Positions 4,762-46,672 of a stretch of DNA of 50,327 bases are shown one piece after another. The stretch lies in the NCBI GenBank assembly GCA_009881125.1, contig WXFH01000047.1:1-50327 (forward strand). The letters are read 5' to 3'. Each line of letters opens with the position of its first letter. Within the stretch, counting starts at the first letter, position 1. The translations under genes were made by a program, and so were the position numbers. The DNA is from Acidaminobacter sp. (GTDB lineage: Bacteria > Bacillota_A > Clostridia > Peptostreptococcales > Acidaminobacteraceae). The notes under the pieces were generated by a model that was given only the letters and a program-made list of their open reading frames with translations, was not told where the DNA came from and did no database searches.

Positions 4762-6132
4762 ATGGAGATTCAAAAAAGTAGACTGCCGCGCTTTATGATC
4801 GTAGGGACAGGCAGCGGCTCCGGAAAGACAACGGTCACCTGCGCCGTGATGAAGGCAATGCAGCTGAGAGGCAATCGTGTCACCGGCTTCAAATGCGGCC
4901 CGGATTTTATTGATCCAATGTTTCATTCGAGTGTGATTGGCGTCAAATCCCGCAATCTCGATATATTTTTGAGCGGGGAGGAGGGGGTTCGATTCCTTCT
5001 CGCCAGGTCATCGCAGGATGCGGATCTTTCCATTATTGAAGGCGTTATGGGGATGTATGATGGCGTCAGCATGACCTCTGATGAGGCGTCGTCAAATCAT
5101 CTCGCCAGGTTGACCGGTACACCGGAAATCCTGGTTGTGGAGGTCGGCGGAATGGCGCTTTCCCTCGCTGCGCTGATCCAGGGCTATTTGAATTTCAGAC
5201 CCAATCTGATCAAGGGGATCATTTTGAATCAGTGCTCCGAGGGTCTGTATGCGTATTACAAAGACATGATTGAGTCTCAGCTTGGCATCCGGGTTTATGG
5301 TTATTTGCCGATGGTGGAGGAAGCGACCATCGGCAGCAGGCACTTAGGGCTTGTCACGGCGGACGAAATTGCGGATTTGCAGACTAAAATCCAGAAGCTT
5401 GCTGAAGCCGCGGAGCGTTCCATAGACCTGGACGGATTGACCGAGCTCGCACGTGAAGCAGAGGTCCTGGAATGGACGGATCTATGGCAGTCTGTTCGTA
5501 AAACTTCAGGCAATAAAATCAGAATTGGCGTGGCCAGGGACAAGGCATTTTGTTTTTTCTATCAGGACAATCTCGATCTGCTGGAAGCCCTTGGCGCGGA
5601 GATTGCTTTCTTCTCGCCGCTGGAGGACTCGGCGCTGCCTGAGGATCTGCAGGGACTGATTCTTTATGGCGGATACCCTGAGCTATATGGGGAACAGCTG
5701 TCTCACAACACTTCAATGCTGGACAGCGTAAGGACTGCTGTTCAAAATCATCTGCCAACGCTGGCGGAGTGCGGCGGCTTTATGTATCTCCTCGAGACCA
5801 TGGTAGACGCTGAAGGCCAGCGACACGCAATGGTGGGGGCGATTGAGGGCGAATCTAAAATGCTGAATCACCTGATTCGTTTTGGCTATGCCAAAATGAA
5901 GGCATTGAAGGATAATCTCCTATGTGAGGCCGGTGCGGAAGTTCCCGTCCATGAGTTTCATTATTCGGACAGCGATCACAACGGCGAAGGCTTTTTTGTT
6001 GAAAAGAAGCAGCGCAGCTGGCACTGCGTCAACCTTACAGAGACTTTATTTGCCGGTTATCCGCATCTGCATTACGGCAGCCGGCCTGAGCTGATGGTGA
6101 GGTTTTTGGAAGCTTGTAAGGGCAAAAAATAA
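4762..6132 (+). CDS. cbiA: cobyrinate a,c-diamide synthase (CobB/CbiA family)
   Basis: Uses ATP and glutamine to amidate the a and c carboxylates of (hydrogeno)cobyrinic acid in cobalamin synthesis. The N-terminal half is a dethiobiotin-synthase-like ATPase with P-loop GTGSGSGKTT at residues 15-24 and KCGPDFIDPMFH. The C-terminal half is a class I-type amidotransferase with the nucleophile in LAECGGFMYL (Cys337) and the late HEFHYS and LHYGSRP motifs. An in-frame ATG lies at 4750, but GAGGTG at 4752-4757 favours the start at 4762 (456 aa). No other cobalamin genes are near. The window does encode one B12-binding protein (31854-32483). Exact copy of the ACCATCGGCAAA motif at 5304-5315. Confidence 0.92.
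   Translation: MEIQKSRLPRFMIVGTGSGSGKTTVTCAVMKAMQLRGNRVTGFKCGPDFIDPMFHSSVIGVKSRNLDIFLSGEEGVRFLLARSSQDADLSIIEGVMGMYDGVSMTSDEASSNHLARLTGTPEILVVEVGGMALSLAALIQGYLNFRPNLIKGIILNQCSEGLYAYYKDMIESQLGIRVYGYLPMVEEATIGSRHLGLVTADEIADLQTKIQKLAEAAERSIDLDGLTELAREAEVLEWTDLWQSVRKTSGNKIRIGVARDKAFCFFYQDNLDLLEALGAEIAFFSPLEDSALPEDLQGLILYGGYPELYGEQLSHNTSMLDSVRTAVQNHLPTLAECGGFMYLLETMVDAEGQRHAMVGAIEGESKMLNHLIRFGYAKMKALKDNLLCEAGAEVPVHEFHYSDSDHNGEGFFVEKKQRSWHCVNLTETLFAGYPHLHYGSRPELMVRFLEACKGKK
5304..5315 (-). repeat. copy of the 12-mer ACCATCGGCAAA
   Basis: Exact match on the - strand inside the cobyrinate diamide synthase gene, where it encodes part of YLPMVEE. An imperfect copy (ACCATCGGCAGC) lies 10 bp away at 5326-5337 on the other strand. 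Confidence 0.9.
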
Positions 6133-6133
6133 T

Positions 6134-6201
6134 AAAGGGACGGCGCAAGGTCTTATGGCAGTCAGTTTTGACAGTCTGCCTGCACTTGCTCCGTCCCTTT
6201 T
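6134..6201. terminator. bidirectional terminator between convergent genes
   Basis: Outer stem AAAGGGACGG/CCGTCCCTTT with GCAAG/CTTGC continuing it and an inner hairpin at the tip. A- and T-tracts lie on the two sides. It ends both the + strand cobyrinate gene and the - strand aminotransferase gene. Confidence 0.8.
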
Positions 6202-6218
6202 ACTGTTCTATGAAATTG

Positions 6219-7385
6219 CTAAATGCTGTCGAGGGATTCAATATAAGTCCGGATTCTTCTGAAGGCTTCTCGAAGCATGTTTTCCGAACCGGCAAAGACC
6301 AGCCTGAGATAGCCTTCTCCCATGGCGCCAAAGGCAGAGCCCGGAACAGTAAGAACTCTGGCGTGATGAATCAGGTCCTCGGCGAAAGCCTGAGAGGATT
6401 TGCCGAAGGCTTTGATGTTGACGAAGGCGTAAAAGGTGCCGGCTATGGTGTGGCAGGTGATCCCGGGGATGGATGCGAGCTCTTCAAGAACCAGATCACG
6501 ATTCGTGATGTACTGGGCGCGCATCTCGCTGATGTCGGCGTCACCTTTCTCTATAGCTTCCGCTGCGGCGGCCTGTATAAACTCAGGAAGACAGGACGCA
6601 ATGCCCTCCTGAAGCTTAGGCATATTGGAAATGATTCGCGGATCGCCCACAACATACCCAATGCGCCAGCCGGTCATGGCATAGGTTTTTGAGAAACTGT
6701 TGACGATCAGGATATTCTCGCGGATGCGGTCGAATTCTGCAAGACTGTGATGGCAGGCGTTATCGTAAACCAGCGCCTCGTAAACCTCGTCGGACACCAC
6801 GAACAGATCGTGACGCTCTACAACTTCCGCGATTTTTTTCATACCCTCATAGGGGATGACCGCTCCCAAAGGATTGCTTGGAGAGTTGAGTATCATGGCT
6901 TTTGTCTTTTCGGTGATGGCAGCTTCGATATCCTCCGCCTGGATGCAAAAATGGTTTTTCTCGTAGACCGGAACCGGAACCGGGATCCCGCCGAGGAGGC
7001 GGATCTGGCCCGCATAATTTGGATAGCCCGGATCGGGGATTAATACCTCATCCCCGGGATTGACAACACAGACGAGTGACAGCAAAATAGCCTCCATGCC
7101 GCCAAAGGCAATCATGACATGATCCTCTGTGTGAGGGGCATTCAGCTGCTTTGAGTACTTTTCGGCAATGGCTTTTCTAAGTGACAGGATGCCGGCGTTT
7201 CCCACGTAATGGGTTTTGTTTTCATCCATGGCTTTTTTGGCAGCGTCTTTGATGAAGGCCGGTGTATCAAAGACAGGTTCGCCGACGGTCAGGCTAATGA
7301 CATCCTCATATTGGGCGGCAAGCTTAAACATCTTTCTAATTCCGGATGCCGGATAATGCTGGACGACTTCTGACAGTGTTTTCAA
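6219..7385 (-). CDS. PLP-dependent class I/II aminotransferase
   Basis: A fold-type I aminotransferase of 388 residues that moves an amino group between an amino acid and a 2-oxo acid. Seen are the N-terminal SLTVGEPVFDTP, the cofactor-contact region YPNYAGQIRLLGG, NSPSNPLGAV, SDEVYEALVY and the PLP-lysine segment SFSKTYAMTGWRIGYV. The substrate (Asp, Ala or aromatic) cannot be read from sequence. A longer reading frame begins at 7451, but the TTG at 7385 is preceded by GGAGG at 9 bp spacing and begins with the family-like MKTLSEVVQHYPASGIRK, so 7385 is chosen. Monocistronic. Confidence 0.9.
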   Translation of the reverse strand: MKTLSEVVQHYPASGIRKMFKLAAQYEDVISLTVGEPVFDTPAFIKDAAKKAMDENKTHYVGNAGILSLRKAIAEKYSKQLNAPHTEDHVMIAFGGMEAILLSLVCVVNPGDEVLIPDPGYPNYAGQIRLLGGIPVPVPVYEKNHFCIQAEDIEAAITEKTKAMILNSPSNPLGAVIPYEGMKKIAEVVERHDLFVVSDEVYEALVYDNACHHSLAEFDRIRENILIVNSFSKTYAMTGWRIGYVVGDPRIISNMPKLQEGIASCLPEFIQAAAAEAIEKGDADISEMRAQYITNRDLVLEELASIPGITCHTIAGTFYAFVNIKAFGKSSQAFAEDLIHHARVLTVPGSAFGAMGEGYLRLVFAGSENMLREAFRRIRTYIESLDSI

Positions 7386-7850: not shown

Positions 7851-10800
7851 ATGCCAAAACGTACTGACATTGAAAGCATTTTGATTATTGGCTCAGGCCC
7901 GATCTTGATCGGCCAGGCCGGCGAATTCGACTATTCAGGGACTCAAGCCTGCAAAGCGCTCAGAAACCTCGGATATAAAATCATCCTGGTGAACTCAAAC
8001 CCAGCGACTATTATGACTGATCCTGAAACTGCAGATGTGACTTACATTGAGCCATTAAACGTGAAGCGCCTGACAGAGATCATCGAGAAAGAGCGCCCGG
8101 ATGCGGTGCTTCCTAACCTCGGTGGACAGTCGGCGCTCAACTTGTGCTCGGAGCTCAGTGCTCAAGGCATTCTTGAGAAGTACGGCGTCAAGGTCATTGG
8201 CGTTCAGATTGACGCGATTGAACGCGGTGAAGACCGCATTGCATTCAAAGAGGCCATGAACCGACTCGGCATTGACATGCCGCGCAGCATGCCGGCTTAC
8301 ACGGTTGAAGAAGCAGAGAAAATCGCACATGAGCTCGGCTACCCGGTTGTTATTCGACCTGCGTACACCATGGGCGGCACCGGCGGCGGCTTGGTCTACA
8401 ATATCGAAGAACTCAGAACCATTGCCAACCGCGGCATCGCGGCCAGCATGGTGGGCCAGATCCTCGTCGAGGAGTCCGTACTGGGCTGGGAAGAGCTTGA
8501 GCTCGAAGTCGTGCGTGACGCAAAGAATCAAATGATTACGGTTTGCTTTATTGAGAATATCGACGCGGTTGGCGTTCACACGGGGGACTCATTCTGTTCA
8601 GCGCCTATGCTGACGATCAGCGAGGATCTTCAGAAGCGCCTTCAGGTGGCGGCTTACAAAGTCGTCCAGGAAATTGAGGTTATTGGCGGCACGAACGTTC
8701 AGTTCGCTTACGATCCTAAGACGGAGCGCTTTGTTATCATTGAGATCAATCCTAGGACGTCGCGATCATCGGCACTCGCTTCCAAGGCGACGGGCTTCCC
8801 AATCGCGCTGATTTCCGCGATGCTCGCTGCAGGTCTGACCCTGGATGAGATTCCATACTGGAGAAAAGGCACCCTGGATCAATACGAGCCGTATGGCGAT
8901 TATGTCGTCATCAAGTTCGCAAGATGGGCATTCGAAAAATTCCCTGGCGCCATTGACAAACTCGGCACTCAGATGCGCGCGGTTGGGGAAGTTATGAGCA
9001 TCGGCAAAAACTATAAGGAAGCCATGCAGAAGGCAATTCGCTCACTTGAAATTGGACGTTATGGACTTGGCTATGCGAAGAACTTCAACGAGCTGAGCCT
9101 GGACGTGCTGATGTCCATGCTGGCGGAGCCGTCCAGCGAGCGTCAGTTTATCCTTTACGAAGCGATTCGAAAAGGCGCGGACATTGAGGAGCTTTACAAG
9201 AAGACGTATATCAAGCCGTATTTCCTTCAGCAGATGAAGGAATTGGTCGACCTGGAGGAAGAGGTTCTCGCGTATAAAGGGAGCAAGCTGCCTGACGCGC
9301 TTCTGACCCAGGCCAAGAAAGATGGCTTTGCGGACCGTTATCTGGCTCAGCTCCTTGGTGTCCCTGAGGTGGATATCCGCGAGCAGCGAAAAGCCATTGG
9401 TGTCGTTGAAGGCTGGGAAGCGGTTCCGGTCAGCGGCGTAGAAAACGCGTCCTACTATTTCTCCACTTACAACGCTCCGGATCAGACGACGGCCAGCGAC
9501 CGCAAGAAGGTCATGGTTCTCGGCGGCGGCCCGAACCGAATCGGTCAGGGCATCGAGTTCGACTACTGCTGTGTCCACACGGCTTTCGCGCTGCGTGACA
9601 TGGGATATGAGACGGTCATTGTCAACTGTAACCCGGAGACGGTGTCGACGGATTATGATACATCGGATAAACTATACTTTGAGCCGCTGACGGTCGAAGA
9701 CGTGCTCAGTATCTACGAGAAGGAAAAGCCGCTGGGCGTCATTGTTCAGTTTGGCGGTCAGACGCCGCTTAACATTGCAGGTGAGCTTGAGAAGGCCGGG
9801 GTCAAGATCATTGGCACAACGCCTGCTACCATTGACCTGGCGGAAGACCGCGACCAGTTTAAAAAGATTATGGAAGAGCTTGAAATTCCAATGCCGGAAG
9901 CCGGCATGGCAGTGACGTTGGAAGAGGCTTTGGAAGTGGCTGGCGGCATTGGTTATCCGGTCATGGCGCGTCCATCCTATGTTCTTGGCGGCCGCGGCAT
10001 GGAAGTGGTTTATACAGAAGAGCAAATGAAGAGCTACATGGAAGCGGCTGTGGGCATCACCAAGGAGCGTCCGGTTCTGATCGACCGATTCCTCAACAAC
10101 GCCCTTGAAGCCGAAGCTGACGCCATTGCAGACGGCAAGGATGCCTTTGTGCCGGCTGTCATGGAGCACATTGAGCAGGCGGGGATCCACTCCGGCGACT
10201 CAGCGTGTGTCATTCCTCCAATAACCATTTCTCAGAAGAACCTCGACATTATTGTTGAGTATACAAAGAAAATCGCCAAGTCCCTCAACGTCATTGGTCT
10301 CATGAATATGCAGTACGCTATAGCGGACGACAAGGTCTACGTTCTTGAAGCGAACCCGCGCGCGTCCAGAACGGTACCCCTCGTGTCGAAGATCTGCAAC
10401 ATTCCTATGGCTAAGATCGCAGTTGAGCTCATGATGGCCCACTTCACCGGCGTCGAGTCCAGCGTCAAGGACCTTAAAACCAGCGTGATTCCACACTTTG
10501 GCGTGAAAGAAGCGGTGTTCCCGTTCAACATGTTCCCTGAAGTTGATCCGGTTCTTGGACCTGAAATGCGTTCTACCGGCGAAGTTCTTGGCATGGCGGA
10601 CAACTTTGGCATGGCATACTTCAAGGGTTATGAAGCGACGAACCTGATGCTTCCAACGGAAGGCTGCGTCCTCATCAGCGTCAACGACAAGGATAAAGCG
10701 GATGCAGTTGACGTCGCCAAAGCCTTCGTCGAGATTGGCTTCACCGTGAAAGCGACCAGCGGCACCAAGGCGTTCCTCGCCCAGCACGGCATTGAGTCCG

Positions 10801-13942: not shown

Positions 13943-13954
13943 TTTGCCGATGGT
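13943..13954 (-). repeat. copy of the 12-mer ACCATCGGCAAA
   Basis: Exact match on the - strand in the plsC-zinc operon intergenic region, 33 bp before the tandem array. Confidence 0.9.
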
Positions 13955-13986
13955 CTCATTAACAAACATTCTCACAAGCTCTGGCA

Positions 13987-14176: not shown

Positions 14177-14217
14177 CCAACTCAAACTCCTCATCAGAAA
14201 AAATTTAGAGATCGCGT

Positions 14218-15342: not shown

Positions 15343-16366
15343 TCCTGACAGAGTCAACCTAAACGAAGCACAATCGATAAGCGCTGAACAACCCCCGAAA
15401 TCAGAGTATCTCAAAAGCATCATCCTCAAAGCGGACAATATCACACTGAAGTATGGCAGACACGAGGTTTTGACGGACGCGAGCTTTACGGTTGAAGCGG
15501 GAGATTATATCGGGATTGTCGGGCCTAACGGCTCCGGCAAAACTTCGCTGATGAAAGCCATGCTGGGACTTATCACACCCACCGGCGGGCGGTTTTCCTA
15601 CGCAGGCGAGGTCAGAGACAACCGGTTCATTGGATATCTGCCGCAGAAAGTCATCAGCGGGGATCCGCTGTTTCCGGCGAAAGTTCGAGAGGTCGTCGCC
15701 ATGGGGCTCCTGTCCTCCAAGCGTTTTCCAAAGCATCTGAGCCAGGAGGACTACAAAAAAGTAGACGGGATCCTCAGCCGCTTGAAGATAGGGAACCTGG
15801 CCGAGAAAAAAATTGGAAATCTGTCCGGAGGACAGCAGCAGCGGGTGCTTCTCGCCAGGGCCCTAGTGTCGTCACCTCGGCTGCTGATTCTGGACGAGCC
15901 GACCAGCGCCCTGGATCCCAAAGTGCGTGAGAATTTTTACGGCATCCTGAAAGAACTCAATGAACAGGACGGGGTCACCATACTTTTGGTCTCCCACGAC
16001 ATAGGCTCCATAGGACAATACACCAAAAAAATGCTCTACCTGGACAGAACGGTGGTCTTTTTCGGGACCTATGGGGATTTTTGTCATTCCCAGGATATGA
16101 CCCACTACTTCGGACCCCTTTCCCAGCACAAATTTTGCTGGCAGCATGATGACCTGCCGGAGACGGCTACGGCCAAGCCGACCTTTCACTTTCACGCGCC
16201 TCATATTCATGTAGACCACGTCCACGCCCATGGCCAATCCATAGATCACAGTCACGAGAGCGACGAGGGTTTCCTTGAGGAATCCAACGACGAGCTGCAG
16301 AGGGTGGGGGCGAAGGAACCATCGGCAAGAAAAACGGAATCCTCTGACAAGGAGGCGCGCCCATGA
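15335..16366 (+). CDS. znuC: zinc ABC transporter ATP-binding protein with His-rich tail
   Basis: Cytoplasmic ATPase of the zinc importer, 343 residues. About 40 N-terminal residues precede the domain. Then Walker A GPNGSGKTS, Q-loop YLPQK, signature LSGGQQQRV, Walker B LLILDEPTSALDP and H-loop VSHD are all intact. Usual ZnuC/AdcC proteins end near 230-250 residues. This one adds roughly 70, including FHFHAPHIHVDHVHAHG and DHSHES, a likely zinc-binding tail. The gene starts with GTG 15335 inside the previous gene and overlaps the permease gene by 4 bp. Near-copy of the 12-mer motif at 16318-16329 (last base G) in the tail. Confidence 0.93.
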   Translation: MNNPDRVNLNEAQSISAEQPPKSEYLKSIILKADNITLKYGRHEVLTDASFTVEAGDYIGIVGPNGSGKTSLMKAMLGLITPTGGRFSYAGEVRDNRFIGYLPQKVISGDPLFPAKVREVVAMGLLSSKRFPKHLSQEDYKKVDGILSRLKIGNLAEKKIGNLSGGQQQRVLLARALVSSPRLLILDEPTSALDPKVRENFYGILKELNEQDGVTILLVSHDIGSIGQYTKKMLYLDRTVVFFGTYGDFCHSQDMTHYFGPLSQHKFCWQHDDLPETATAKPTFHFHAPHIHVDHVHAHGQSIDHSHESDEGFLEESNDELQRVGAKEPSARKTESSDKEARP

Positions 16367-17224: not shown

Positions 17225-17731
17225 ATGAAACCAAACAGTGAAAGTGGAAGCAAGCGTGTGAAAACTGTGGCGGGGGCTGGTCAGGGAACCATCGGCAAAA
17301 GCTCTGGGAATAAAGAGATGCTGGAAAGCTGCGGCATTAAGCTGACACGCCAGCGCCTGGACCTCTTAGAGCAGTTAAAGAAGGCCGATGGTCCCATAAC
17401 CGCAGAGCAGCTCTTCCTGAACCTTCGGGAGGAGGCCGCCGCGATCAGCCTTTCCACGGTCTACAGAATTCTGGACGCCTTTGAACTGAAGGGCCTCGTG
17501 GAAAAAGTCGTCAGCGCGGACGAGAACAAGGCGATTTATGAGCTCAACCGTCACGAACACGGACATCACCTCATTTGCACCCAGTGCAAGGTCAGAATGA
17601 CCATCACAGGCTGTCCGCTGGCCGGCTACGAAGAAGCTTTAGCCAGGTCCACAAACTATAGAATTACAGGTCACAGGCTGGAAGTGTATGGCTTGTGCCC
17701 GAAGTGCCAATCTGAGCTGGGCATGCTGTAG
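17225..17731 (+). CDS. zur: Fur-family regulator, probably Zur
   Basis: Metal-responsive repressor of 168 residues. Residues 38-100 hold the winged helix (LTRQRLDLLEQLKKADGPITAEQLFLNLRE, STVYRILDAFELKGLVEKV). The C-terminal dimer domain has HEHGHHLICTQC with metal-binding His residues, plus a structural zinc site of two CxxC pairs (CTQC and CPKC). Being the last gene of a zinc uptake operon behind a 7-1-7 box argues for Zur rather than Fur or PerR. The N-terminus is about 35 residues longer than usual, low in complexity, and carries a 12-mer motif copy encoding TIGK. Start ATG with GAGGTG. Confidence 0.88.
   Translation: MKPNSESGSKRVKTVAGAGQGTIGKSSGNKEMLESCGIKLTRQRLDLLEQLKKADGPITAEQLFLNLREEAAAISLSTVYRILDAFELKGLVEKVVSADENKAIYELNRHEHGHHLICTQCKVRMTITGCPLAGYEEALARSTNYRITGHRLEVYGLCPKCQSELGML
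17288..17299 (+). repeat. copy of the 12-mer ACCATCGGCAAA
   Basis: Exact + strand match in the poorly conserved N-terminal extension of zur. Confidence 0.9.
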
Positions 17732-17771
17732 GCCGGAAGCTGGAGTTTGCCGATGGAAAGGTGGAAATAAA

Positions 17772-19108: not shown

Positions 19109-19120
19109 ACCATCGGCAAA
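19109..19120 (+). repeat. copy of the 12-mer ACCATCGGCAAA
   Basis: Exact + strand match (preceded by G, followed by AA) between the rubredoxin-like and transporter genes. Confidence 0.9.
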
Positions 19121-23007: not shown

Positions 23008-24414
23008 TTATGAAGAGGGCTGAAGGGGGAGGATCACTGTAAAAGTCGTCCCTTCCCCGGCCGGGCTGTGGACCTCAATACGCCCATGGTGGGCGTCCAC
23101 GATCAGCTTGACAATGGTCAGGCCAATGCCGCTGCCGCCGGTCTCCCTGTGGCGCGACACGTCCGCCCGGTAAAACCGGTCAAAGAGAAATGGCAGATCT
23201 TCGGGCGCAATGCCTGCCCCGCTGTTAAAGACCTTCAAAAACGCTTCGCTGCTGCCGATGGTCCCGGTCTCCACATGGATGCGGCCACCGTCCGGTGTGT
23301 ATTTAACGGCGTTGGAAAGAAGGTTGACAAGAACCTGTCTGAGTCGGTGGGCGTCACCGACCATCGGCAAAGAAAAAGCAAGGTCGGAGGTTAATGTCTG
23401 AGCGCGGGTCATGGCATCCGCTTCAAATAGAGTCAGGGCGTCGCGGACAATAACGGTGAGGTCAATGTCATCATAGGTGAGCTCAACGGTGTCGTCCTCA
23501 AGGTCTGCGATCTCACGGAGGCGTTCCACCAGGCCAATCAGGCGTTCGGTTTCACTGCGGGCGACGAGCAGACGGTCAGGTGTCGCCTCGAAGATACCCT
23601 CAAGAATGGCGTCCAGCTGGCCTTGGATGATGGTCAGGGGCGTCCGCAGCTCATGGGCGAGGTCTGAGGTCAAGCGCTTTCTGATTTCGCTCTGGTGAGA
23701 CAGGGTCTCGGCCAGATCGTTGACAGCTCCTGAAAGCTCGGTCAGTTCGCGTACGGATTGCCGTTCTTCAGCGCGCCGTCCAAAGTGACCGTTTCGGATG
23801 CTCTTCGTGACCTCGGTGAGGTTGACAATGGGGCGGGATAGCAGTTTGGACAGATAGGCAGACAGAAGCCCGGAAAGACCGAGGGCGATAGCCAGGGACA
23901 TGAGCAGGGAGCGGTTGACGCCGGAAGTAAAGTCCAGCTCGGCGGTGTCCACCGAAAAGGTGGAAGGATAGATCAATTCAACGGTGCCAATAGTCTCCCC
24001 GTTTATCACAATGTCCTCGACGACATTAGTACCGTCATAGAACCTGGACTGAAAGAACATGGCATTTCTGCCCATGCGCCGCATCATGTTCTGGTGAAAG
24101 CTGACGCGGTCCGGGCGGAGCTGGCTGTTCATCACCATGAGTTCCTGAGTGTCGTAGATTCTGAAGCTGAATTCATCCGTGCCCGGATAGGCCAGCAGCA
24201 TAGTCAGCGTTTTCCCGGTCCAGCCATCATTCAGCTGGTAAACCCGAGAGGTGTATTCTGAAAAGTCGCTGGCGCTTTGGAGCTGGACGGCTTCCTTGTA
24301 ATTGTAAAAAGTGCTGTAGAGGGCAGCGTTGGTGAGCAGCAGCGCAGTGAGGCCGCTGACCAGGGCGGAGGCCAGCAGGAATCGCGTCAGACGTCCTCTC
24401 AGAGTAGTCTTCAT
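23008..24414 (-). CDS. sensor histidine kinase
   Basis: Membrane sensor of 468 residues: segments at about 12-32 and 168-188 enclose an extracytoplasmic domain of about 135 residues. A HAMP linker (SRPIVNLTEVTKSIRNGHFGRR), HisKA with phospho-acceptor His254 in DLAHELRTPLT, and HATPase_c with NLLSNAVKYTP, FDRFYRAD and GSGIGLTIVKLIVDAHHG follow. It overlaps the response regulator gene by 4 bp and pairs with it. The stimulus is unknown. A 12-mer motif copy lies antisense in the ATPase region, encoding LPMVGD. Confidence 0.95.
   Translation of the reverse strand: MKTTLRGRLTRFLLASALVSGLTALLLTNAALYSTFYNYKEAVQLQSASDFSEYTSRVYQLNDGWTGKTLTMLLAYPGTDEFSFRIYDTQELMVMNSQLRPDRVSFHQNMMRRMGRNAMFFQSRFYDGTNVVEDIVINGETIGTVELIYPSTFSVDTAELDFTSGVNRSLLMSLAIALGLSGLLSAYLSKLLSRPIVNLTEVTKSIRNGHFGRRAEERQSVRELTELSGAVNDLAETLSHQSEIRKRLTSDLAHELRTPLTIIQGQLDAILEGIFEATPDRLLVARSETERLIGLVERLREIADLEDDTVELTYDDIDLTVIVRDALTLFEADAMTRAQTLTSDLAFSLPMVGDAHRLRQVLVNLLSNAVKYTPDGGRIHVETGTIGSSEAFLKVFNSGAGIAPEDLPFLFDRFYRADVSRHRETGGSGIGLTIVKLIVDAHHGRIEVHSPAGEGTTFTVILPLQPSS
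23360..23371 (+). repeat. copy of the 12-mer ACCATCGGCAAA
   Basis: Exact + strand match inside the - strand histidine kinase gene, preceded by G. Confidence 0.9.
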
Positions 24415-25103: not shown

Positions 25104-25235
25104 GTTGGATCGCCTCCAGGGATTGCGGGTGCTGTCATGACGGGTCAACGCCACCAAGACGAAAAACTGGCCGATGGTCGCGTTGACGCGTCATGATGAC
25201 CATTTGGTGTGTGCCTTGCCGGTAACTTTAAGTAG

Positions 25236-26421: not shown

Positions 26422-26459
26422 GTGTCTGTTTATCAACTGAAAGTTGGAGGCGTATGGAG

Positions 26460-28349
26460 ATGTCAGAGAAGACTCAACTGCAAGCAGCATCTGATGTGAA
26501 TCAAGTTCTTGGCAAAGCCCTTGAGACCTGGGAAACTGAATACCCCAAAATTCGCAGCATCAGGAGCTATGAAGAGGTGTTCTGGAGCAATCAAAATCTG
26601 AAGCCTGTTGAGGACGCGATCCTTGAAACGGGGATTACCCTTGAGCAAATTCAGTCTGCGGAGCATAGACTAAAACGCTTCGCCCCCTTCTTCATGGAGG
26701 CGTTTCCTGAGACGCGAAGCACTCAGGGCCTTCTGGAATCGAAAATTCGCCGTGTCGAGTCATTTCAGGCCGAACTTGAGAAGACGCCCTTTGCAGTGCC
26801 TTTTGGCCGATTGATGCTCAAACTCGACAGCCACCTGCCAATATCGGGATCGATCAAGGCCCGGGGCGGTATTTATGAAGTTCTGCAGCATGCGGAACAG
26901 CTGGCAGTGGAAGCGGGACTACTGACCCCCGGCATGAGCTACGCCGCGTTCGCGGAGCCAAGGTTCAAAAAATTCTTCTCTGATTACAGCGTCGCAGTGG
27001 GCTCCACAGGTAATCTGGGACTCAGCATTGGCATCATCAGTGCCGCGCTGGGCTTTAAGGCCCAAGTGCATATGTCCTCGGACGCCAAGGCCTGGAAGAA
27101 AGCGCTGCTGCGCCAGAAGGGCGTTGAAGTCTTCGAGTACGATTCGGATTACAGCGTTGCCGTGGAGCAGGGGCGAAAGGAAGCAGAAAAGGACCCCAAA
27201 ACCTATTTTGTGGATGATGAAAACTCGTTGAATCTGTTCCTGGGCTATGCGGTGGCCGCGCTGCGCCTTAAAGGTCAGCTGGATCATCTGGGCTACACGC
27301 CTTCTGAAACATCGCCGCTGTTTGTGTATCTGCCCTGTGGTGTCGGCGGTGGTCCCGGCGGGGTCGCTTTTGGCCTCAAGATGCTCTTTGGCGAGCACGT
27401 CCACTGCTACTTCGCTGAGCCGACCCATTCGCCCTGTATGCTTCTGGGCATGATGACCGACCAGCATGACGCTGTCAGCGTCCAGGATTTTGGCCTGGAC
27501 AACCGGACTATTGCCGATGGTCTTGCCGTCGGACGTCCTTCCCTGTTCGTAGGGAAAGTCCTGAGACATCTTTTGGATGGTGTCTTCAGTGTCACAGACG
27601 AACATATGCTGTCCGACCTGGCAATGATGGCGGATTTTGAGTCCCTTCGCCTGGAGCCTTCCGCCCTCGCGGGCATCAGCGGGCCGTCCTGGCTGAAGCG
27701 TGATACGGCCGTCTATGAGGCGCTGCTTGAGCGGTATACACCGGAGGCCCTTAATCAGTCGATCCATCTCTCCTGGGCAACCGGTGGGAGCATGGTGCCG
27801 GAAGAGGTCATGGAAAAAGATATTGAGCATGGCAGGAAGCTGTATCAAAACAGCACATGGACAGCCCGTTCCGGCAAGTTCAATTCCGGTACGTCTCATG
27901 AAGCTCCATCCATGCAGATTGTAGTGGATGAAGGTCTGGATACTGAGGAAGAAGATCAAATCAGAGATGAGGCTTTGATCAGTGAGCGGCTATGGAATTA
28001 TAACCTTCAGAGCTGGCCAACCCATGTTGAAAAATCCAGGATGCTCAGACTGTTTCTCAGAACCGCGGAAGGTGAGCTGCTGGGTGGATTGATTGGTAAA
28101 ATTTACAGAAGCGCTTTGTTCGTGGATAAACTTTTTGTTGAGGACGCGCTTAGGGGCCAGGGCTGGGGAGAACGACTGCTGAATCGCGCAGAATCGATTG
28201 CCAGGAAAGAAGGCGCGGTATTTGCCCATCTGGATACCTTCAGTTTTCAAGCGCCGGACTTTTATGAAAAACTGGGCTACAAAGCGTTTGGAATTCTCGA
28301 TGATTACCCGGATGGACTGAAGCGCTATTTTTATAAGAAGACCTTGTAG
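26460..28349 (+). CDS. dsdA: D-serine dehydratase fused to a GNAT acetyltransferase
   Basis: 629 residues. Residues 1 to about 450 match D-serine ammonia-lyase, which turns D-serine into pyruvate and ammonia: GRLMLKLDSHLPISGSIKARGG with PLP lysine Lys133, SVGSTGNLGLSIG for phosphate binding, LPCGVGGGPGGVAFGLK and FAEPTHSPCMLLGM. E. coli DsdA is 442 aa. After an acidic linker (about 470-490), residues 500-629 form a GNAT domain (RLFLRTAEGELLGGLIGKIY, LFVEDALRGQGWGERLLNRAESIARKEG, FYEKLGYKAFGIL). GGAGG at 26446-26450 is too near ATG 26454, so ATG 26460 (9 bp) is preferred. No dsdC or dsdX nearby. Confidence 0.92.
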   Translation: MSEKTQLQAASDVNQVLGKALETWETEYPKIRSIRSYEEVFWSNQNLKPVEDAILETGITLEQIQSAEHRLKRFAPFFMEAFPETRSTQGLLESKIRRVESFQAELEKTPFAVPFGRLMLKLDSHLPISGSIKARGGIYEVLQHAEQLAVEAGLLTPGMSYAAFAEPRFKKFFSDYSVAVGSTGNLGLSIGIISAALGFKAQVHMSSDAKAWKKALLRQKGVEVFEYDSDYSVAVEQGRKEAEKDPKTYFVDDENSLNLFLGYAVAALRLKGQLDHLGYTPSETSPLFVYLPCGVGGGPGGVAFGLKMLFGEHVHCYFAEPTHSPCMLLGMMTDQHDAVSVQDFGLDNRTIADGLAVGRPSLFVGKVLRHLLDGVFSVTDEHMLSDLAMMADFESLRLEPSALAGISGPSWLKRDTAVYEALLERYTPEALNQSIHLSWATGGSMVPEEVMEKDIEHGRKLYQNSTWTARSGKFNSGTSHEAPSMQIVVDEGLDTEEEDQIRDEALISERLWNYNLQSWPTHVEKSRMLRLFLRTAEGELLGGLIGKIYRSALFVDKLFVEDALRGQGWGERLLNRAESIARKEGAVFAHLDTFSFQAPDFYEKLGYKAFGILDDYPDGLKRYFYKKTL

Positions 28350-32483: not shown

Positions 32484-33661
32484 GGCTGGCTTCCTATTTT
32501 GCCATGAGATTTATCAAAAGATCCAAGATGCAGTCCGCTTTGATTGTGGCCGGATTGACTATGGGCGTCGCGGTGCTGGTGATCACGACCTGGCTCGTCG
32601 AAGGGATGCGCGCTGCCATGGACGAGACCTATGCAGGGAACATTCCGCACCTTGTGGTGAGACAGTTGGGAGAAACGACGCAAGGCCTGGAGGATAGGGT
32701 GGGGCTTGAGGAGACCATCGGCAAAGCTCTGCCTGGGCTTGTGGCCATGACCCCGACGCTGGATCAGCAAGTGGTGCTGAGGCTGCCGCCGTCCGATCCG
32801 GCAGCTGCGGGGGACACGCCTCTGACGATGCGGGGGCTGAAGCTGGCTCGCGCTGGGGATCTGTACCCGCTGGGAAGCGCCATGATCAGCGGTCGAACCT
32901 TTAAAGAGGGCCGTGAAATTGTCGTGGGGACTTTGCTCGCCGAACGCCTGTCTCTGGAGGTTGGCGATGGGGTGGTGCTGGAGGACGATCATGGGAAAAC
33001 GGCAACTTTTAATGTCGTTGGTATTTTTGACCTGAAGCTCGAAGAGGAAAATGCGTCAATGGCTTATGTGGATTTATCCGCGCTGCAGTTGGCGTTTGGA
33101 CTGGAAGAGGCCGCGGCGCAAATTGAGCTGCAGCTGGAAGACGCTTTCAAGGCAGGCGAAGCGTCACTTCAGCTGGCCTCTGTGCTTGACTGGCCGTCCC
33201 TCGAAATCAGAAGCTGGGAGACGACCCATGAGCAGCTGTTTGAAGCCGCAGCCCTGCAGCGCAGTGCCATAAGGCTTTTGATGATCGCGGTGACGCTGAT
33301 CATTTTCGTGGGGACGGTGCTGATTCTGTCCTTGTCCGTGTATCAGCGTGCTGTTCAGCTGGCGGTGTTTAAGTCCCTGGGACTTCGCAGCGGTCAGGGG
33401 GGAATGGTGTTTGCGCTCTATGCTTTTTACCTGTCGCTGTTTGGGGTCTTTGGAGGGATTGCAGCAGGGTCGGGGCTTATTCGACTTTATAAGACTCAGT
33501 CTGTTTTGGGGATCAGCGCCTATCAGCAGGCACCTGAGCTGAATCTGGTCAGTCTGGTCCTGTCCCTGGCGGTGTTGCCGCTGGCTTCGGCTGTGGCAGC
33601 GAGGGGCGTGGCCCAGTGGGTGATCAGCAAAGATCCTGCGGAGGTGATTCGGCATGGGTAA
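32480..33661 (+). CDS. FtsX/MacB-type ABC transporter permease
   Basis: 393 residues with the LolC/MacB plan: segment 1 at about 20-42 (SALIVAGLTMGVAVLVITTWL), a 220-residue extracytoplasmic MacB-PCD-like domain, then three segments near 270-295, 318-345 and 355-380 (LLMIAVTLIIFVGTVLILSLSVYQRAVQLAVFKSLGLRSGQ is the FtsX hallmark). Such proteins do not make a classical channel but transmit ATPase motion across the membrane (lipoprotein or peptide export, or signalling). Overlaps the B12 protein gene and, by 8 bp, the ATPase gene. A 12-mer motif copy encodes TIGKA in the outer domain. Confidence 0.9.
   Translation: MRLASYFAMRFIKRSKMQSALIVAGLTMGVAVLVITTWLVEGMRAAMDETYAGNIPHLVVRQLGETTQGLEDRVGLEETIGKALPGLVAMTPTLDQQVVLRLPPSDPAAAGDTPLTMRGLKLARAGDLYPLGSAMISGRTFKEGREIVVGTLLAERLSLEVGDGVVLEDDHGKTATFNVVGIFDLKLEEENASMAYVDLSALQLAFGLEEAAAQIELQLEDAFKAGEASLQLASVLDWPSLEIRSWETTHEQLFEAAALQRSAIRLLMIAVTLIIFVGTVLILSLSVYQRAVQLAVFKSLGLRSGQGGMVFALYAFYLSLFGVFGGIAAGSGLIRLYKTQSVLGISAYQQAPELNLVSLVLSLAVLPLASAVAARGVAQWVISKDPAEVIRHG
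32714..32725 (+). repeat. copy of the 12-mer ACCATCGGCAAA
   Basis: Exact + strand match, preceded by G, in the extracytoplasmic-domain coding part of the FtsX-like permease gene. Confidence 0.9.
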
Positions 33662-34358
33662 TATTCAGCCATCGGCATTATCACTTTCCGGGGTTGTCAA
33701 ATCCTTTGGCAAAAATAATGAGAAACGTGCGCTTTCAGGCATAGACCTGGCTTTTGCCGATGGTGAGATCACTTCAATCACCGGCCCAAGCGGCGCTGGC
33801 AAGAGTACGCTGCTTCAGATCGCCGGTTTGATGCTGACACCGGATCAAGGGGAGGTCATGGTGCGGGAGCGGCGTGTTTCCGAGATGACAGGGGCGACAC
33901 GCGGACGCTATTTAAGACAGGAACTGGGCTTCGTTTTTCAGCGCCCTGCCTTGATTCCAGAATTTACCGTGCTGGAGAATGTGTTGCTTACAGACCGTAT
34001 ATTGAACGGAAAAGTGGAAGCGTCAAATTTGCCTTATGCCAAGAAGCTGATCCTGGAAGCCGGTTTGTCCGGCTGTGAAGCGGAATTTCCATGGGCGCTG
34101 TCCGAGACCCAGCAGAAGACGGTGACGCTGGTGAGGGCACTGGTCAATATGCCGTCGATCCTTTTGATCGATGAGCCTGTGGCAGGGATGGATGAGCGTT
34201 CGGCTGAGGTCATGATCCGGCTGATTTGGCAGATCCATGAGAAATTCAGGACGACCTGCATTATGGTCAACAACGAGCGGGTCCTGGCAGAGAGGTCCGA
34301 CCGGGTGATCGAGCTGAGGGAAGGACGCGTATTTGCGGATTTTAGAAGAGGATTGTAA
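33654..34358 (+). CDS. LolD/MacB-type ABC ATPase with degenerate motifs
   Basis: 234 residues. Walker A GPSGAGKS (44-51), Q-loop Gln96 and Walker B LLIDEP (170-175) are intact. The signature is LSETQ (149-153) instead of LSGGQ, the D-loop is GMDERS, and the switch histidine is replaced by Asn207 in MVNNE. Known MacB/LolD ATPases need the signature glycines and switch His for hydrolysis, so this subunit may bind ATP but hydrolyse it slowly, or work as a sensor or switch. Third gene of the B12-protein operon, followed by a terminator. A 12-mer motif copy encodes FADGE. Confidence 0.9.
   Translation: MGNIQPSALSLSGVVKSFGKNNEKRALSGIDLAFADGEITSITGPSGAGKSTLLQIAGLMLTPDQGEVMVRERRVSEMTGATRGRYLRQELGFVFQRPALIPEFTVLENVLLTDRILNGKVEASNLPYAKKLILEAGLSGCEAEFPWALSETQQKTVTLVRALVNMPSILLIDEPVAGMDERSAEVMIRLIWQIHEKFRTTCIMVNNERVLAERSDRVIELREGRVFADFRRGL
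33753..33764 (-). repeat. copy of the 12-mer ACCATCGGCAAA
   Basis: Exact - strand match in the 5' part of the ABC ATPase gene, about 1 kb from the copy in the permease gene. Confidence 0.9.
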
Positions 34359-36343: not shown

Positions 36344-36344
36344 C

Positions 36345-39151: not shown

Positions 39152-39163
39152 ACCATCGGCAAA
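39152..39163 (+). repeat. copy of the 12-mer ACCATCGGCAAA
   Basis: Exact + strand match, preceded by G and followed by five more A, in the leader region of the Stn-like operon. Confidence 0.9.
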
Positions 39164-41541: not shown

Positions 41542-44500
41542 ATGCCATATATCAGAGTTAATATCGATGGCCGTGAGATTCAGACCTATCGCGGCCATAC
41601 GATCCTGGAAGTCGCGGCTCAGGCCGGGATTGACATCCCAACCCTGTGCCACGACGATAAGATAGAGAACTACGGCTCCTGCGGCATCTGCGTCGTAGAA
41701 GTCGAGGGCAACCCGCGCCTGGTGCGCTCCTGCTCTACTGAGATCATGGACGGCATGGTCATCAGAACCATGTCTGACCGTATCCGGGAAAGCCGGAAGA
41801 CGACCCTTGAGCTGCTGCTGTCCGACCATACCGGCGACTGTAAGGCACCGTGTACCCATGGCTGTCCGGGCCACGTTGACGTTCAGGGCTACGTCGGCCT
41901 GATCGCCAACAAACAGTACCAGGAGGCACTGAAGCTCATCAAGAAAGAGCTGCCGCTTCCTGCGTCCATCGGCAGGGTTTGTCCTCACCCTTGCCAGACA
42001 CAATGCCGACGCGGCCTCGTGGACGAGTCCATCACCATTGCCTGGCTGAAGTATTTTGTCGCGGACCTCGACCTTAAGAGCGGAAGCCCTTACATGCCGC
42101 CAATGCTGCCGGATTCCGGGAAGAAAGTCGCCATAGTCGGCGGCGGCCCGAGCGGACTTTCCGCGGCTTACTACCTGCGCACCCAAGGCCACGCAGTAAC
42201 TGTCTATGAAGCTATGCCGGAATTTGGCGGCATGCTCAAATATGGTATTCCGCTCTACAGACTGCCAAAGGATGTCCTGAAGTCAGAAGTGGAAGTCATC
42301 CGCAGCATGGGCGTCGAGCTCAAGCCTAACATTCGTATAGGTACTGATGTGACCCTGGAGTATCTCAGAGAGAAGTTTGACGCGGTGTACATAGGCATAG
42401 GCGCATGGACCAGCATGGGCATTGACTGCCCTGGGGATCAGCTGGACGGCGTCATTGGCGGCATACAGTTTCTGACTAAGTTCGCGGTCAATGAACCAAT
42501 CAAGACCGGCGAGCGCATCGCGGTTATTGGCGGCGGCAACACGGCTATGGACGCGGCAAGAACGGCGATCCGCCTTGGCGCCAAAGAAGTCTACACTATT
42601 TACCGTCGAACCAAGGAAGATATGCCTGCGGTGGATATCGAGATTGAAGAGGCTATGGAAGAGGGCGTCGTCTTTAAGTTCCTTCTCAGCCCAATTGAGG
42701 TTATTGGCGACGAAAACGGCCGCGTGAAGCAGATCCGGCTGCAGAAAATGCAGGTCGTCGGCGGCGGTGCGGACGGACGCAAAAAAGTGGTGCCTGTTGA
42801 AGGCGAAGAGGAAATTTTGAATGTAGACTCGGTGATCATGTCCGTTGGACAACGTCTTAAAGGGGATGGCTTTGAGGAGCTCGCCCTGAACAAGCACGGC
42901 TACATTGTTGCAGATCCTGAGACCTTCATGACCAACCTGGACGGCGTCTTCGCCGGCGGGGACGCGACGAATAAGGGCGCGGATATTGCCATTGCTGCGA
43001 TTGCAGAAGGCAAGTGGGCGGCGCGCGTCATGAATACCTATCTCCACGGCAACCTGAAGCCCCACAAGGATCCATTCTACGTCAAGCGTGAGGACCTCAC
43101 CAGCGAGAGCTTCCCGGATGTGGTTCGCGAGCTTCGCCCGCATATGGCTCATGAGCATCCTGAACTGAGAAAGCACAACTTTGAAGAGGTCGTCAAGGGC
43201 TATACCGAGGCGGCGGCAGTGCAGGAAGGCAACAGATGCCTGGAGTGCGGCTGCCACGATTACTTCGAGTGCGATCTGATCACCCATTCCCAGGCCTATG
43301 ATGTCAAACCGGAGCGCTTTGCCGGTGAGATGCACAAGCGTATGGACGACGACGATCATCCGTTTATCAAGCGGGATCCAAACAAGTGCATACTGTGCGG
43401 CCAGTGCGTCAGAATCTGTGACGAGGTCATGGACAACACGGCGCTGGGTCTTGTCAGCCGCGGCTTTGACACTATTGTGAAGCCATCCATGGAGAAAAAC
43501 CTGAAAGAGACGGAGTGTATTTCCTGTGGCCAGTGCATCAGCGTTTGTCCGACCGGAGCGCTCCAGGAGCGTACGCCAATCCATAAGCCGGTACCGGTTC
43601 GCACTACGCTGACTACGACGGCTTGCTCCTGCTGTTCCGTGGGCTGTACCCGCGACCTTGAGAGCCGCGGCGCCATGCTGCTGCGCTCATTGCCGGTGAG
43701 CGGTGAAAACACGGTCAACGACGGGCTCCTGTGCTCGAAGGGCCGCTTTGGCTTCTCGGCATATATCACAGAAAACCGTATTACTAAGCCGATGGTCCGC
43801 AAAGACGGCGAACTGGTAGAAACGACCTTCAGAGAGGCCTTCCTCTATGCGGCAAGACGCGCTCAGAGCCTGCATCTCCTGCACGGACGCAATTCTGTGG
43901 GCATCAGCATCTCTGACCGCTACACCAACGAGGAGCTCTACATGGCGAAGAAATTCGGCGTCGAGGTTCTGGGCACCAACGAAATCTTCTCCCTTGGCAA
44001 CAAGAAGAGCGGACTTAAGGATGTCCTCCCGTATGACGCGTCTCCGAACCTGCTCGACGAGCTGACCAGGACGGATGTCATAATCTCTGTTGGCGGCGAC
44101 ATGATGACGGATTACGCGATCGCGGCGCTGAAAGTCAAAGAAGCGGTTGGAAATGGCGCTAAACTGATTCACCTCAATAATCGTAAGAATAAGCTGGATG
44201 ATTGGGCAGCGCGCTCCGTCAAGCTGGAGAATAATCTGGAATTCCTCCGCGAAATCGCCAAGTATTTGGCAGATCACAGCACTAAGGCAATACGGGCTGC
44301 TGGTTTAGAGGACGTTAAAGCGTCACTCTCAGATGTTCGCGTGTCTTCCGAAGCCGCAGAAATTGCGGAGCTCTATCTCAACGCCAAGAAGGCCATGATC
44401 GTGTATGACGGCCGTGAAATCAGCCTAGAAGGCGAGCAGCTCATTGCATCACTCTGCATGCTGTCCGGCCATATTGCGTCCGCGCGGGAAGGCTTCATCA

Positions 44501-45120
44501 AACTGCGCGCCAACGCCAACGGCCAGGGTCTCGTCGACATGGGCATTGACCTCGACAGCGCGTCCAAGTACGCGAAAATCGCCAGCGGCGAAATCAAAGG
44601 CCTGATGGTCTTTGGTGAGGATGTCTCTGTGGACGCCGTCCGCGGACTGTCCTTCCTGATGGTTCAGGATACCCATATGACTGAGCTCGCGAAAATCGCG
44701 GATGTCGTCATTCCTGCCACGGTCATGGTTGAGTCAAACGGCACGATCACTTCCGCGGAGCGCCGCATCCACAGCGTCAGCGCTGCCGTTGAATCCCCAA
44801 CGGGTCTCAGCAACTGGGAGATCTTCAAGGAGCTCATGAATACCTACAGCACCAACTGCGCGGTCCAGAGCCACGAGGAGATCACCGAGGAGTACAGCCG
44901 CGACATGTTTGGCTATGTAGGCCTCACTAATAAAATGAAGGCTGCCGATGGTCCTGTCTACTGGCCAATCGGTCAGTCCCCGCAGCTTTACACTCGCGAG
45001 CAATTGGCGGCTCATGGACGTTACGTCATCCCGCAGGAAGGCAGACTCTTCGACTCGATTGAAGAGACGAACTATTTGAAGCGACTCTTTGGGGCGTTTA
45101 TTAAAGAGGCGACGGCTTAA
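41542..45120 (+). CDS. stnC: StnC-like NuoG/GltD fusion, NADPH-binding subunit
   Basis: 1192 residues. (1) NuoG-type [2Fe-2S] domain with Cys36, 47, 50, 64. (2) His/Cys segment DHTGDCKAPCTHGCPG. (3) GltD/NfnB-like flavoprotein: VAIVGGGPSGLSAAYYL for FAD, RIAVIGGGNTAMDAARTA for NAD(P)H, DGVFAGGDATNKGADIA. (4) Two [4Fe-4S] motifs CILCGQCVRIC and CISCGQCISVCP plus CSCCSVGC. (5) A C-terminal molybdopterin-oxidoreductase-like fold (about 700-1190) without visible metal ligand, as in NuoG. No hydrogenase H-cluster motif is present. Together with the two genes before it this matches the Sporomusa-type Stn transhydrogenase, linking NADH, ferredoxin and NADPH pools. Confidence 0.88.
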   Translation: MPYIRVNIDGREIQTYRGHTILEVAAQAGIDIPTLCHDDKIENYGSCGICVVEVEGNPRLVRSCSTEIMDGMVIRTMSDRIRESRKTTLELLLSDHTGDCKAPCTHGCPGHVDVQGYVGLIANKQYQEALKLIKKELPLPASIGRVCPHPCQTQCRRGLVDESITIAWLKYFVADLDLKSGSPYMPPMLPDSGKKVAIVGGGPSGLSAAYYLRTQGHAVTVYEAMPEFGGMLKYGIPLYRLPKDVLKSEVEVIRSMGVELKPNIRIGTDVTLEYLREKFDAVYIGIGAWTSMGIDCPGDQLDGVIGGIQFLTKFAVNEPIKTGERIAVIGGGNTAMDAARTAIRLGAKEVYTIYRRTKEDMPAVDIEIEEAMEEGVVFKFLLSPIEVIGDENGRVKQIRLQKMQVVGGGADGRKKVVPVEGEEEILNVDSVIMSVGQRLKGDGFEELALNKHGYIVADPETFMTNLDGVFAGGDATNKGADIAIAAIAEGKWAARVMNTYLHGNLKPHKDPFYVKREDLTSESFPDVVRELRPHMAHEHPELRKHNFEEVVKGYTEAAAVQEGNRCLECGCHDYFECDLITHSQAYDVKPERFAGEMHKRMDDDDHPFIKRDPNKCILCGQCVRICDEVMDNTALGLVSRGFDTIVKPSMEKNLKETECISCGQCISVCPTGALQERTPIHKPVPVRTTLTTTACSCCSVGCTRDLESRGAMLLRSLPVSGENTVNDGLLCSKGRFGFSAYITENRITKPMVRKDGELVETTFREAFLYAARRAQSLHLLHGRNSVGISISDRYTNEELYMAKKFGVEVLGTNEIFSLGNKKSGLKDVLPYDASPNLLDELTRTDVIISVGGDMMTDYAIAALKVKEAVGNGAKLIHLNNRKNKLDDWAARSVKLENNLEFLREIAKYLADHSTKAIRAAGLEDVKASLSDVRVSSEAAEIAELYLNAKKAMIVYDGREISLEGEQLIASLCMLSGHIASAREGFIKLRANANGQGLVDMGIDLDSASKYAKIASGEIKGLMVFGEDVSVDAVRGLSFLMVQDTHMTELAKIADVVIPATVMVESNGTITSAERRIHSVSAAVESPTGLSNWEIFKELMNTYSTNCAVQSHEEITEEYSRDMFGYVGLTNKMKAADGPVYWPIGQSPQLYTREQLAAHGRYVIPQEGRLFDSIEETNYLKRLFGAFIKEATA

Positions 45121-45980: not shown

Positions 45981-46008
45981 CGTTGAGCGGTTAAATTTAA
46001 GGGATAGG

Positions 46009-46147: not shown

Positions 46148-46176
46148 TTGACAATTAATCCCTCTTTTGATATTGT
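46148..46176 (+). promoter_or_regulatory. promoter of ssb
   Basis: TTGACA (46148-46153), 17 bp, TATTGT (46171-46176), 29 bp before the start codon. Confidence 0.6.
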
Positions 46177-46205
46177 AAAAATATACCAATCACAGGAGGG
46201 ATTCT

Positions 46206-46610
46206 ATGAATAATGTTAGTCTGATCGGCCGTCTCACCCATGAACCAGAGTTGAAATTTACCCAGGGCGGACTAGCTGTCAACAAGCTGATCATTGCGGT
46301 GGACCGTTCACTCGGTCGCGAAAAGCGGGATGAGCTCAGGCGCCAGGGCAAACCGACCGCAGACTTTCCAAGAGTTGTCGCAATGGGGAAATTGGCGGAA
46401 ACCTGCCAGACGTATTTGAAGAAGGGTGATTTGTTCAGCGTGGAAGGCAGGGTTTCAACTTCATCTTATGAAAATAAGGATGGGGATAAAGTGTTCAACA
46501 CAGATATCATTGCGTCACATATTCGATTTTTGACACCTAACCGCGGCACAACTGAAATTATACCGGCAGACCTTTCTTCAGAAGAGGCCGTTGAGATAGC
46601 GCCTTTCTAA
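46206..46610 (+). CDS. ssb: single-stranded DNA-binding protein
   Basis: 134-residue OB-fold protein: MNNVSLIGRLTHEPELKFTQGGLAVNKLIIAVDR and FSVEGRVSTSSYENKDGDKVFNTDIIAS are typical. It is shorter than housekeeping Ssb, with almost no glycine/glutamine linker, and ends EAVEIAPF rather than the acidic DDDIPF tip used to recruit repair proteins. It stands alone, not between rpsF and rpsR, so it is probably a second copy. GGAGGG precedes ATG. Confidence 0.92.
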   Translation: MNNVSLIGRLTHEPELKFTQGGLAVNKLIIAVDRSLGREKRDELRRQGKPTADFPRVVAMGKLAETCQTYLKKGDLFSVEGRVSTSSYENKDGDKVFNTDIIASHIRFLTPNRGTTEIIPADLSSEEAVEIAPF

Positions 46611-46660
46611 TTCGCTCAGCAAAGTCGACTGAAGATAGGAGATGGGAGTAACTCAGCATA

Positions 46661-46672
46661 ACCATCGGCAAA
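46661..46672 (+). repeat. copy of the 12-mer ACCATCGGCAAA
   Basis: Exact + strand match 50 bp after the ssb stop codon, before the terminator. Confidence 0.9.

Follow-up and report, generated by a model that had tools for sequence, protein, structure and literature searches.

A 9-bp core with long asymmetric flanks, dispersed through Acidaminobacter genomes, as a probable DNA uptake signal in the Clostridia

Uptake signals, as described in passages of earlier work, are non-palindromic words of 9 to 12 nt that lie both within and between genes, lack an orientation bias, stand to about 10% in inverted repeats and carry an extended flank (PMC1939737; PMC1852404; PMC3630211), and the uptake signal sequence (USS) and DNA uptake sequence (DUS) are reported there to be without orientation bias along the chromosome (PMC1939737). 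According to the passages seen of a 2025 paper, the Neisseriaceae and Pasteurellaceae are the only families known to select DNA by such tags, and the inner cores are CTG for DUS and GCGG for USS (PMC12616744). Excerpts of this literature name ComP as the known DUS receptor and treat the USS receptor as a prediction so far. A screen of Veillonella, given as data not shown by its authors, is reported in one passage to have returned no word of at least 10 bases with at least 100 copies (PMC5397411). Titles, abstract beginnings and passages of the literature yielded no uptake sequence for Acidaminobacter or for the Clostridia, the one mention of Clostridia in PMC1852404 lying outside those passages. 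Here we describe a motif in a 50,327-nt stretch of DNA from Acidaminobacter sp. (Clostridia; GenBank assembly GCA_009881125.1, contig WXFH01000047.1, positions 1 to 50,327; hereafter the window), in which the 12-mer ACCATCGGCAAA had been singled out as greatly over-represented.

The over-representation is real, and it is larger than first described. Nine exact copies of ACCATCGGCAAA occur in the window, all with the coordinates and strands given in the original prediction, compared to 0.01 in 100 dinucleotide shuffles, and 15 sites match the 12-mer with at most one mismatch, compared to 0.33 expected. The 12-mer belongs, as one of its forms, to a longer motif built on a shorter and stricter 9-bp core, ACCATCGGC. 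With 19 copies, this core ranks first by Markov score among the 9-mers of the window; among 12-mers, words from a local tandem array outrank ACCATCGGCAAA by the same score.

We then counted the motif in two related genomes, Acidaminobacter sp. MAG4 (G001), to which the window is closest (49% of its 31-letter words are common to MAG4), and Acidaminobacter hydrogenoformans (G002). MAG4 contains 224 exact 12-mers (118 on the forward and 106 on the reverse strand; control with the reversed word, 0) and A. hydrogenoformans 266 (143 and 123; control, 2), with similar numbers per Mb of whole genome, and the 10-mer ACCATCGGCA has 675 copies in MAG4 (336 and 339; control, 3). A genome-wide count near expectation would have spoken against the motif; in both relatives the counts lie far above their controls. 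The core is the top 9-mer in 400 kb of MAG4 (87 copies) and in 355 kb of A. hydrogenoformans (88 copies), with about one expected, as it is in 80-kb samples of both genomes; in the larger stretches the top 8-mers are sub-words of the core, and by Markov score ACCATCGGCA leads the 10-mers and ACCATCGGCAAA the 12-mers.

Among the genomes sampled, the motif is restricted to the genus. The next-highest 12-mer count among 61 genomes (the two above and their relatives) was six, in one genome of another family, and six was likewise the maximum outside the genus in a class-wide sample of 243 genomes that did not include A. hydrogenoformans. The next-highest 10-mer count among 148 genomes of the order was 36. 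One genome of the same order and another family, G040, has six 12-mers, which is above chance, and an unremarkable 10-mer count of 12 (control, 2). In a search for dialects, 80-115 kb per genome were sampled from nine further members of the family or order (G014, G040, G009, G017, G013, G022, G025, G029 and G036), and none showed a comparably strong short word in dispersed copies. Separately, the top words of G014 are clustered within 13 kb of one stretch (G014:C1:200001-213100), where TGCGGGAACGTT, GGGATACGACGG and AAATGCGACGCG recur on one and the same strand (GC content of the sample, 28%), and the top words of G013 and G029 are overlapping parts of longer repeats.

The motif extends well beyond the core, spanning about 40 bp in an asymmetric arrangement of a G/T-rich 5' arm, the strict core and an A-rich 3' side. 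Across 194 contexts, G is preferred at -3 (59%) and -1 (58%) and T at -7 (45%), the interval from about -21 to -9 is rich in G and poor in C, and A prevails from +9 to +12 (73, 57, 69 and 52%), with some T at +16 to +19. The core is not self-complementary, and most of its single-base variants occur at counts near the Markov expectation, with the first A, the second C and the last C tolerating a few changes. When close pairs were removed (204 contexts), sense-coding, antisense-coding and intergenic subsets gave similar logos, the 3' A-run being strongest in the intergenic subset; for permuted words, 1192 contexts showed no such base composition. A recent duplication of a longer repeat was considered as the source of the copies and rejected, as the flanks share base preferences and not sequence.

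Cores are found within genes and between them. Based on gene calls from a simple heuristic script, on which all coding and intergenic assignments rest, 57/87 cores on contig C2 of MAG4, 49/88 on contig C19 of A. hydrogenoformans and 14/19 in the window are inside genes, where they occur in all six frames. Full 12-mers are enriched between genes, with 16/30 (MAG4 C2) and 21/28 (A. hydrogenoformans C19) intergenic compared to non-coding fractions of 12% and 15% (P 3e-8 and 3e-12), and 4/9 in the window. Spacing is near random or clustered, with coefficients of variation of 0.69, 0.86, 0.86 and 1.53.

For orientation relative to replication, three contigs were divided into 12 blocks and the nine blocks with more than 65% of their long genes on one strand were kept; the three dropped for mixed gene direction hold 94 cores. 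No leading-strand bias was detected in the nine blocks, as 66/123 cores lie on the majority-gene strand (95% interval, 44-63%), or across all 12 blocks by GC skew (116/217 cores). As a control, 34/49 Escherichia coli Chi sites fell on the leading strand in four 50-kb stretches of one replichore, whose orientation we assumed; the contrast between the two is suggestive only (Fisher P 0.06), leaving room for a weak bias of the motif.

Close pairs of cores are inverted without exception. Sixteen pairs lie within 50 bp of each other, when 2.6 of any kind would be expected under uniform placement, and these comprise seven in the +- and nine in the -+ arrangement, with 13 of the 16 between genes; 32/236 cores stand in such pairs. 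A scan of named genomes for the inverted pair returned at least 119 stretches, and among the 80 of 119 that were listed, 18 came from Acidaminobacter (seven from MAG4 and 11 from DSM 2784), six from one Cytophagales metagenome-assembled genome (MAG) and the others from genomes contributing one to three each; we take the pairs outside Acidaminobacter to be chance hairpins. The 11 DSM 2784 loci, which were chosen for the pair, contain 23 further cores in 88 kb beyond the 22 that selected them, and they match the compared parts of the A. hydrogenoformans genome only once, over 1.3 kb at 73%.

Cores persist between species more often than controls do, although the majority turn over. Contig C2 of MAG4 and contig C25 of A. 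hydrogenoformans align over 321 kb at 77% identity, and 21/58 MAG4 cores in aligned sequence are identical in A. hydrogenoformans, compared to 78/677 permuted words (Fisher P 4e-6) and to 46/352 when the positions were displaced by 45-90 bp; retention was measured in this one direction, from MAG4 to A. hydrogenoformans. Between the window and MAG4, 17/18 alignable cores are identical, a figure that says nothing about selection since 95/105 permuted words are equally kept. As the original prediction had judged likely, selection on the motif thus appears to act at the level of DNA, given its presence on both strands and in all six frames, the similar flank logos of the three subsets and the retention above controls. 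In a separate observation, identity per kb between window positions 1352-46845 and contig C16 of MAG4 is a mosaic, at 84-95% over 1-8 kb, 99-100% over 9-17 kb and 95-100% thereafter, which fits either homologous replacement or a chimeric MAG.

Core density climbs with local GC content (Spearman 0.60, 10-kb windows), from 0 per 10 kb below 42% GC (four windows) to 4.4 above 54% (eight windows) across MAG4 C2 and A. hydrogenoformans C19 and C25. By a rough estimate, this dependence exceeds the effect of the core's own composition, and recombination-linked GC bias is one possible reading of it. The longest core-free stretch, 51 kb at 43% GC (A. hydrogenoformans C19:47711-98763), holds a polysaccharide-type gene cluster, with functions judged by eye from protein starts. 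Large unaligned blocks lie only at the ends of the compared range and are therefore uninformative on islands.

Every trait of the published description given at the outset is present in the Acidaminobacter motif, with copies spread more thinly than in the known systems, for which one source passage gives 1,471 USS in 1.83 Mb of Haemophilus influenzae and 927 in 2.26 Mb of Pasteurella multocida (PMC1852404). In the passages available on the Pasteurellaceae USS, AAGTGCGGT, that signal shares with the Acidaminobacter motif a 9-bp core, a longer asymmetric flank, both orientations, copies in coding and intergenic DNA, and pairing, with about 10% of USS in inverted repeats (PMC1939737; PMC1852404). 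The two differ in that the Acidaminobacter motif is unrelated in sequence, has fewer copies, belongs to a Clostridia host and carries its flank preference mainly on the 5' side, where it is G/T-rich, while that of USS is 3' and A/T-rich. With the Neisseriaceae DUS, GCCGTCTGAA, and its dialects, described in part in PMC3630211, it has in common a length of 10 to 12 nt, restriction to a clade and inverted pairs between genes, although both pair arrangements occur here and Neisseria strongly prefers +-, as a passage of PMC1852404 reports. Neither CTG nor GCGG occurs in ACCATCGGC or its complement, and the motif is therefore not a dialect of either known lineage.

We consider it probable that the motif serves as a DNA uptake signal that arose independently and works like the DUS of Neisseria and the USS of Haemophilus; among the candidates that had been offered for the word, this one fits best. 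With somewhat less confidence, we favor a fuller version, in which a tag of about 40 bp (the G/T-rich arm plus ACCATCGGCAAAA) serves a third, independently evolved system of self-DNA recognition in natural transformation, the first outside the Proteobacteria, in which the pilus or the cell surface selects tagged DNA, the tag being possibly read by one of two orphan minor pilins. In the mechanism that we infer for uptake, receptor and drive, a surface protein, most likely a type IVa minor pilin or a ComEA-like receptor, would bind the core of 9 to 12 bp, aided by the flanks, and a type IVa pilus would draw the bound duplex inward. ComEC would then import one strand, which DprA and RecA would recombine into the chromosome. 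Because tagged fragments would be imported more often, tagged alleles would spread and copies would accumulate.

Genes for much of this machinery are present. ComEC was found in 41/41 genomes searched, including MAG4 and A. hydrogenoformans, and these two also encode DprA and an HHH_3 protein of 172 aa that is presumably ComEA-like. A. hydrogenoformans has a type IVa pilus cluster with PilD, PilM, PilN, PilB, PilT, PilC, a sigma factor and three proteins with prepilin motifs. Two of these minor pilins (L277:1137-2517) had no relatives beyond A. hydrogenoformans among 5.8 billion proteins at the sensitivity of the search, and the third had ten further relatives; the first two, standing beside the pilus motors, are candidates for the receptor. 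In MAG4, contig C47 stops directly after PilD, PilM and PilN; these three share 70-88% identity with their A. hydrogenoformans counterparts. Only Tad-type loci had at first been seen in MAG4, and a Tad pilus as its sole machine was discarded once a prepilin peptidase match led to the C47 cluster. Two features of the A. hydrogenoformans cluster may be added: the PilO position is occupied by a protein with S-layer homology domains (L277:10355-11548), and the sigma factor gene is of the sigma-70 family (L277 5530-6297).

Several observations weigh against an uptake signal. Copies are few, at one core per 4-8 kb, and density differs nearly twofold between syntenic contigs (87/400 kb on MAG4 C2, 42/340 kb on A. 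hydrogenoformans C25). Codon phase 0 is favored among coding copies. The absence of cores from a presumptive island comes down to one gap of low GC that was picked post hoc as the longest (P 3e-6, uncorrected), and a 26-kb core-free gap in MAG4 contains ordinary genes, which shows that a gap need not be an island. A search of MAG4 with PF07963 detected no prepilin, and no PilB-like ATPase was detected there either; since contig C47 ends inside the pilus cluster, an assembly gap is the likely, though not proven, cause. Pilus clusters are also present in seven relatives that lack the motif (one of them, G003, seen in part only), and because ComEC is in every genome searched, machinery genes alone predict nothing. 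No receptor for the motif was identified, and the literature listings returned no uptake, binding or competence experiment for the genus. Finally, both Acidaminobacter genomes encode AddA, so a Chi-like site could exist.

The last point leads to the alternatives. Known Chi words are 5-8 nt long and over-represented in their hosts, and a Chi-like site recognized by AddAB in repair would account for an over-represented, non-palindromic word with a G/T-rich 5' arm in genomes that encode AddA. The Acidaminobacter motif, however, is too long for a known Chi, combining a strict 9-bp core with about 30 bp of flank preference, and its close inverted pairs are not expected of Chi. The original prediction had also listed a segregation or architectural motif, and the leading-strand bias expected of a segregation motif, as of Chi, went undetected within the limits of the E. 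coli comparison; Chi-like and architectural roles are both less likely than an uptake signal, and we regard Chi as quite unlikely. A binding site for a protein that organizes or segregates the chromosome could explain hundreds of dispersed sites that are denser in GC-rich stretches and enriched between genes. Known sites of this type are typically palindromic or oriented, whereas the cores have no detectable orientation relative to replication, are spaced near randomly or in clusters, form close inverted pairs and are not kept between species at 37/58 positions, making this explanation unlikely.

Restriction sites are normally avoided in genomes rather than enriched, which speaks against a word tied to a DNA methyltransferase. 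A precedent for such a word, or for another DNA-level process, is nonetheless provided by HIP1 of cyanobacteria, a genome-wide word with a similarly singular over-representation that is linked to methylases according to the opening of an abstract (PMC4390886). HIP1 is a palindromic octamer, in contrast to the asymmetric motif with long flanks described here, and we hold a HIP1-like role to be very unlikely. Remnants of a mobile repeat, either repetitive extragenic palindromic (REP)-like or of the miniature inverted-repeat transposable element (MITE) type, would fit the inverted pairs able to fold as hairpins, and other repeat families do occur in these genomes. Against this, more than half of the cores on each sequence lie inside genes, nothing outside the motif is shared except base preferences, and one-mismatch variants are few where decaying repeats should have left many; of all the alternatives, it is the one to which we attach hardly any credence.

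If the motif is indeed an uptake signal, Acidaminobacter would provide the first tag of this kind beyond the families of Neisseria and Haemophilus, and a third case, in another phylum, would indicate that such tags evolve repeatedly. An independent origin would make it possible to test drive against mate recognition, a new search for receptors would be opened, and Acidaminobacter would be predicted to be naturally transformable and hence genetically tractable.

Within the window, four full 12-mers are intergenic by our heuristic gene calls, the number also given in the original prediction: 13943..13954 (-); 19109..19120 (+), between convergent genes; 39152..39163 (+), upstream of a gene for a thioredoxin-like [2Fe-2S] ferredoxin; and 46661..46672 (+), after an SSB-family gene. 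The other five are coding and read as LPMV twice, TIGK twice and FADG once, in agreement with the original reading. The copy at 5304..5315 (-) is antisense inside cobB (named by NCBIfam) and forms an inverted pair with a core at 5326..5334 (+), which is followed by AGC and lies in sense in the same gene. At 17288..17299 (+), a sense copy encodes TIGK at residue 22 of a Fur/Zur-family gene (17225-17731, PF01475 match), consistent with the earlier remark on the zur N-terminus. The remaining three are antisense in a histidine kinase gene (23360..23371, +), sense in a MacB/FtsX-type permease gene (32714..32725, +) and antisense in an ABC ATPase gene, where the reading is FADG (33753..33764, -). 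G precedes five of the nine copies (13943, 19109, 23360, 32714 and 39152), the preference that had been noted.

One-mismatch 12-mers exist as predicted, and of the three positions proposed for them 16318 was right, while 8999 deviated by two bases and 27511 by one. They lie at 8997-9008 (+), 17746-17757 (-) and 18468-18479 (-), and at three sites that contain an intact core: 16318-16329, with the core at 16318..16326 (+) lying in an ABC ATPase gene, where AAG follows it; 27510-27521, with the core at 27513..27521 (-) followed by AAT and antisense in its gene; and 48109-48120, with the core at 48112..48120 (-) followed by CAA and antisense in a gene that only weakly matches transporter-type proteins. 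The gene around the second of these (26454-28349) encodes a predicted protein that joins a PALP-type enzyme domain to a GNAT acetyltransferase domain.

Other cores are found at 2541..2549 (+), in sense in an amidase gene (TIG) and without a conserved copy in MAG4; at 17384..17392 (-), antisense in the Fur/Zur-family gene; at 23254..23262 (-), followed by AGC and in sense in the histidine kinase gene; and at 25170..25178 (-), between genes. Two more, at 43788..43796 (-) and 44944..44952 (-), the latter followed by AGC, are antisense in one large oxidoreductase gene with Molybdopterin and Pyr_redox_2 domains.

Additional repeats were observed in these sequences. The tandem array of the window, at 13985-14190, has a mostly 24-bp period and contains CACCAAAACAAACT (seven copies) and the palindrome GGTGTCAGACACC. 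The palindrome has 10 copies in the window, seven of them in the array and the others at 1232, 18728 and 38889, and it occurs nine times in 400 kb of MAG4 and not at all in 695 kb of A. hydrogenoformans. Contig C19 of A. hydrogenoformans carries a second repeat family of G/C-rich words, including GGCCCAGTCCCC, GTCCCCAACCAA and GTCCCTGTCCCC, which may possibly be REP-like.

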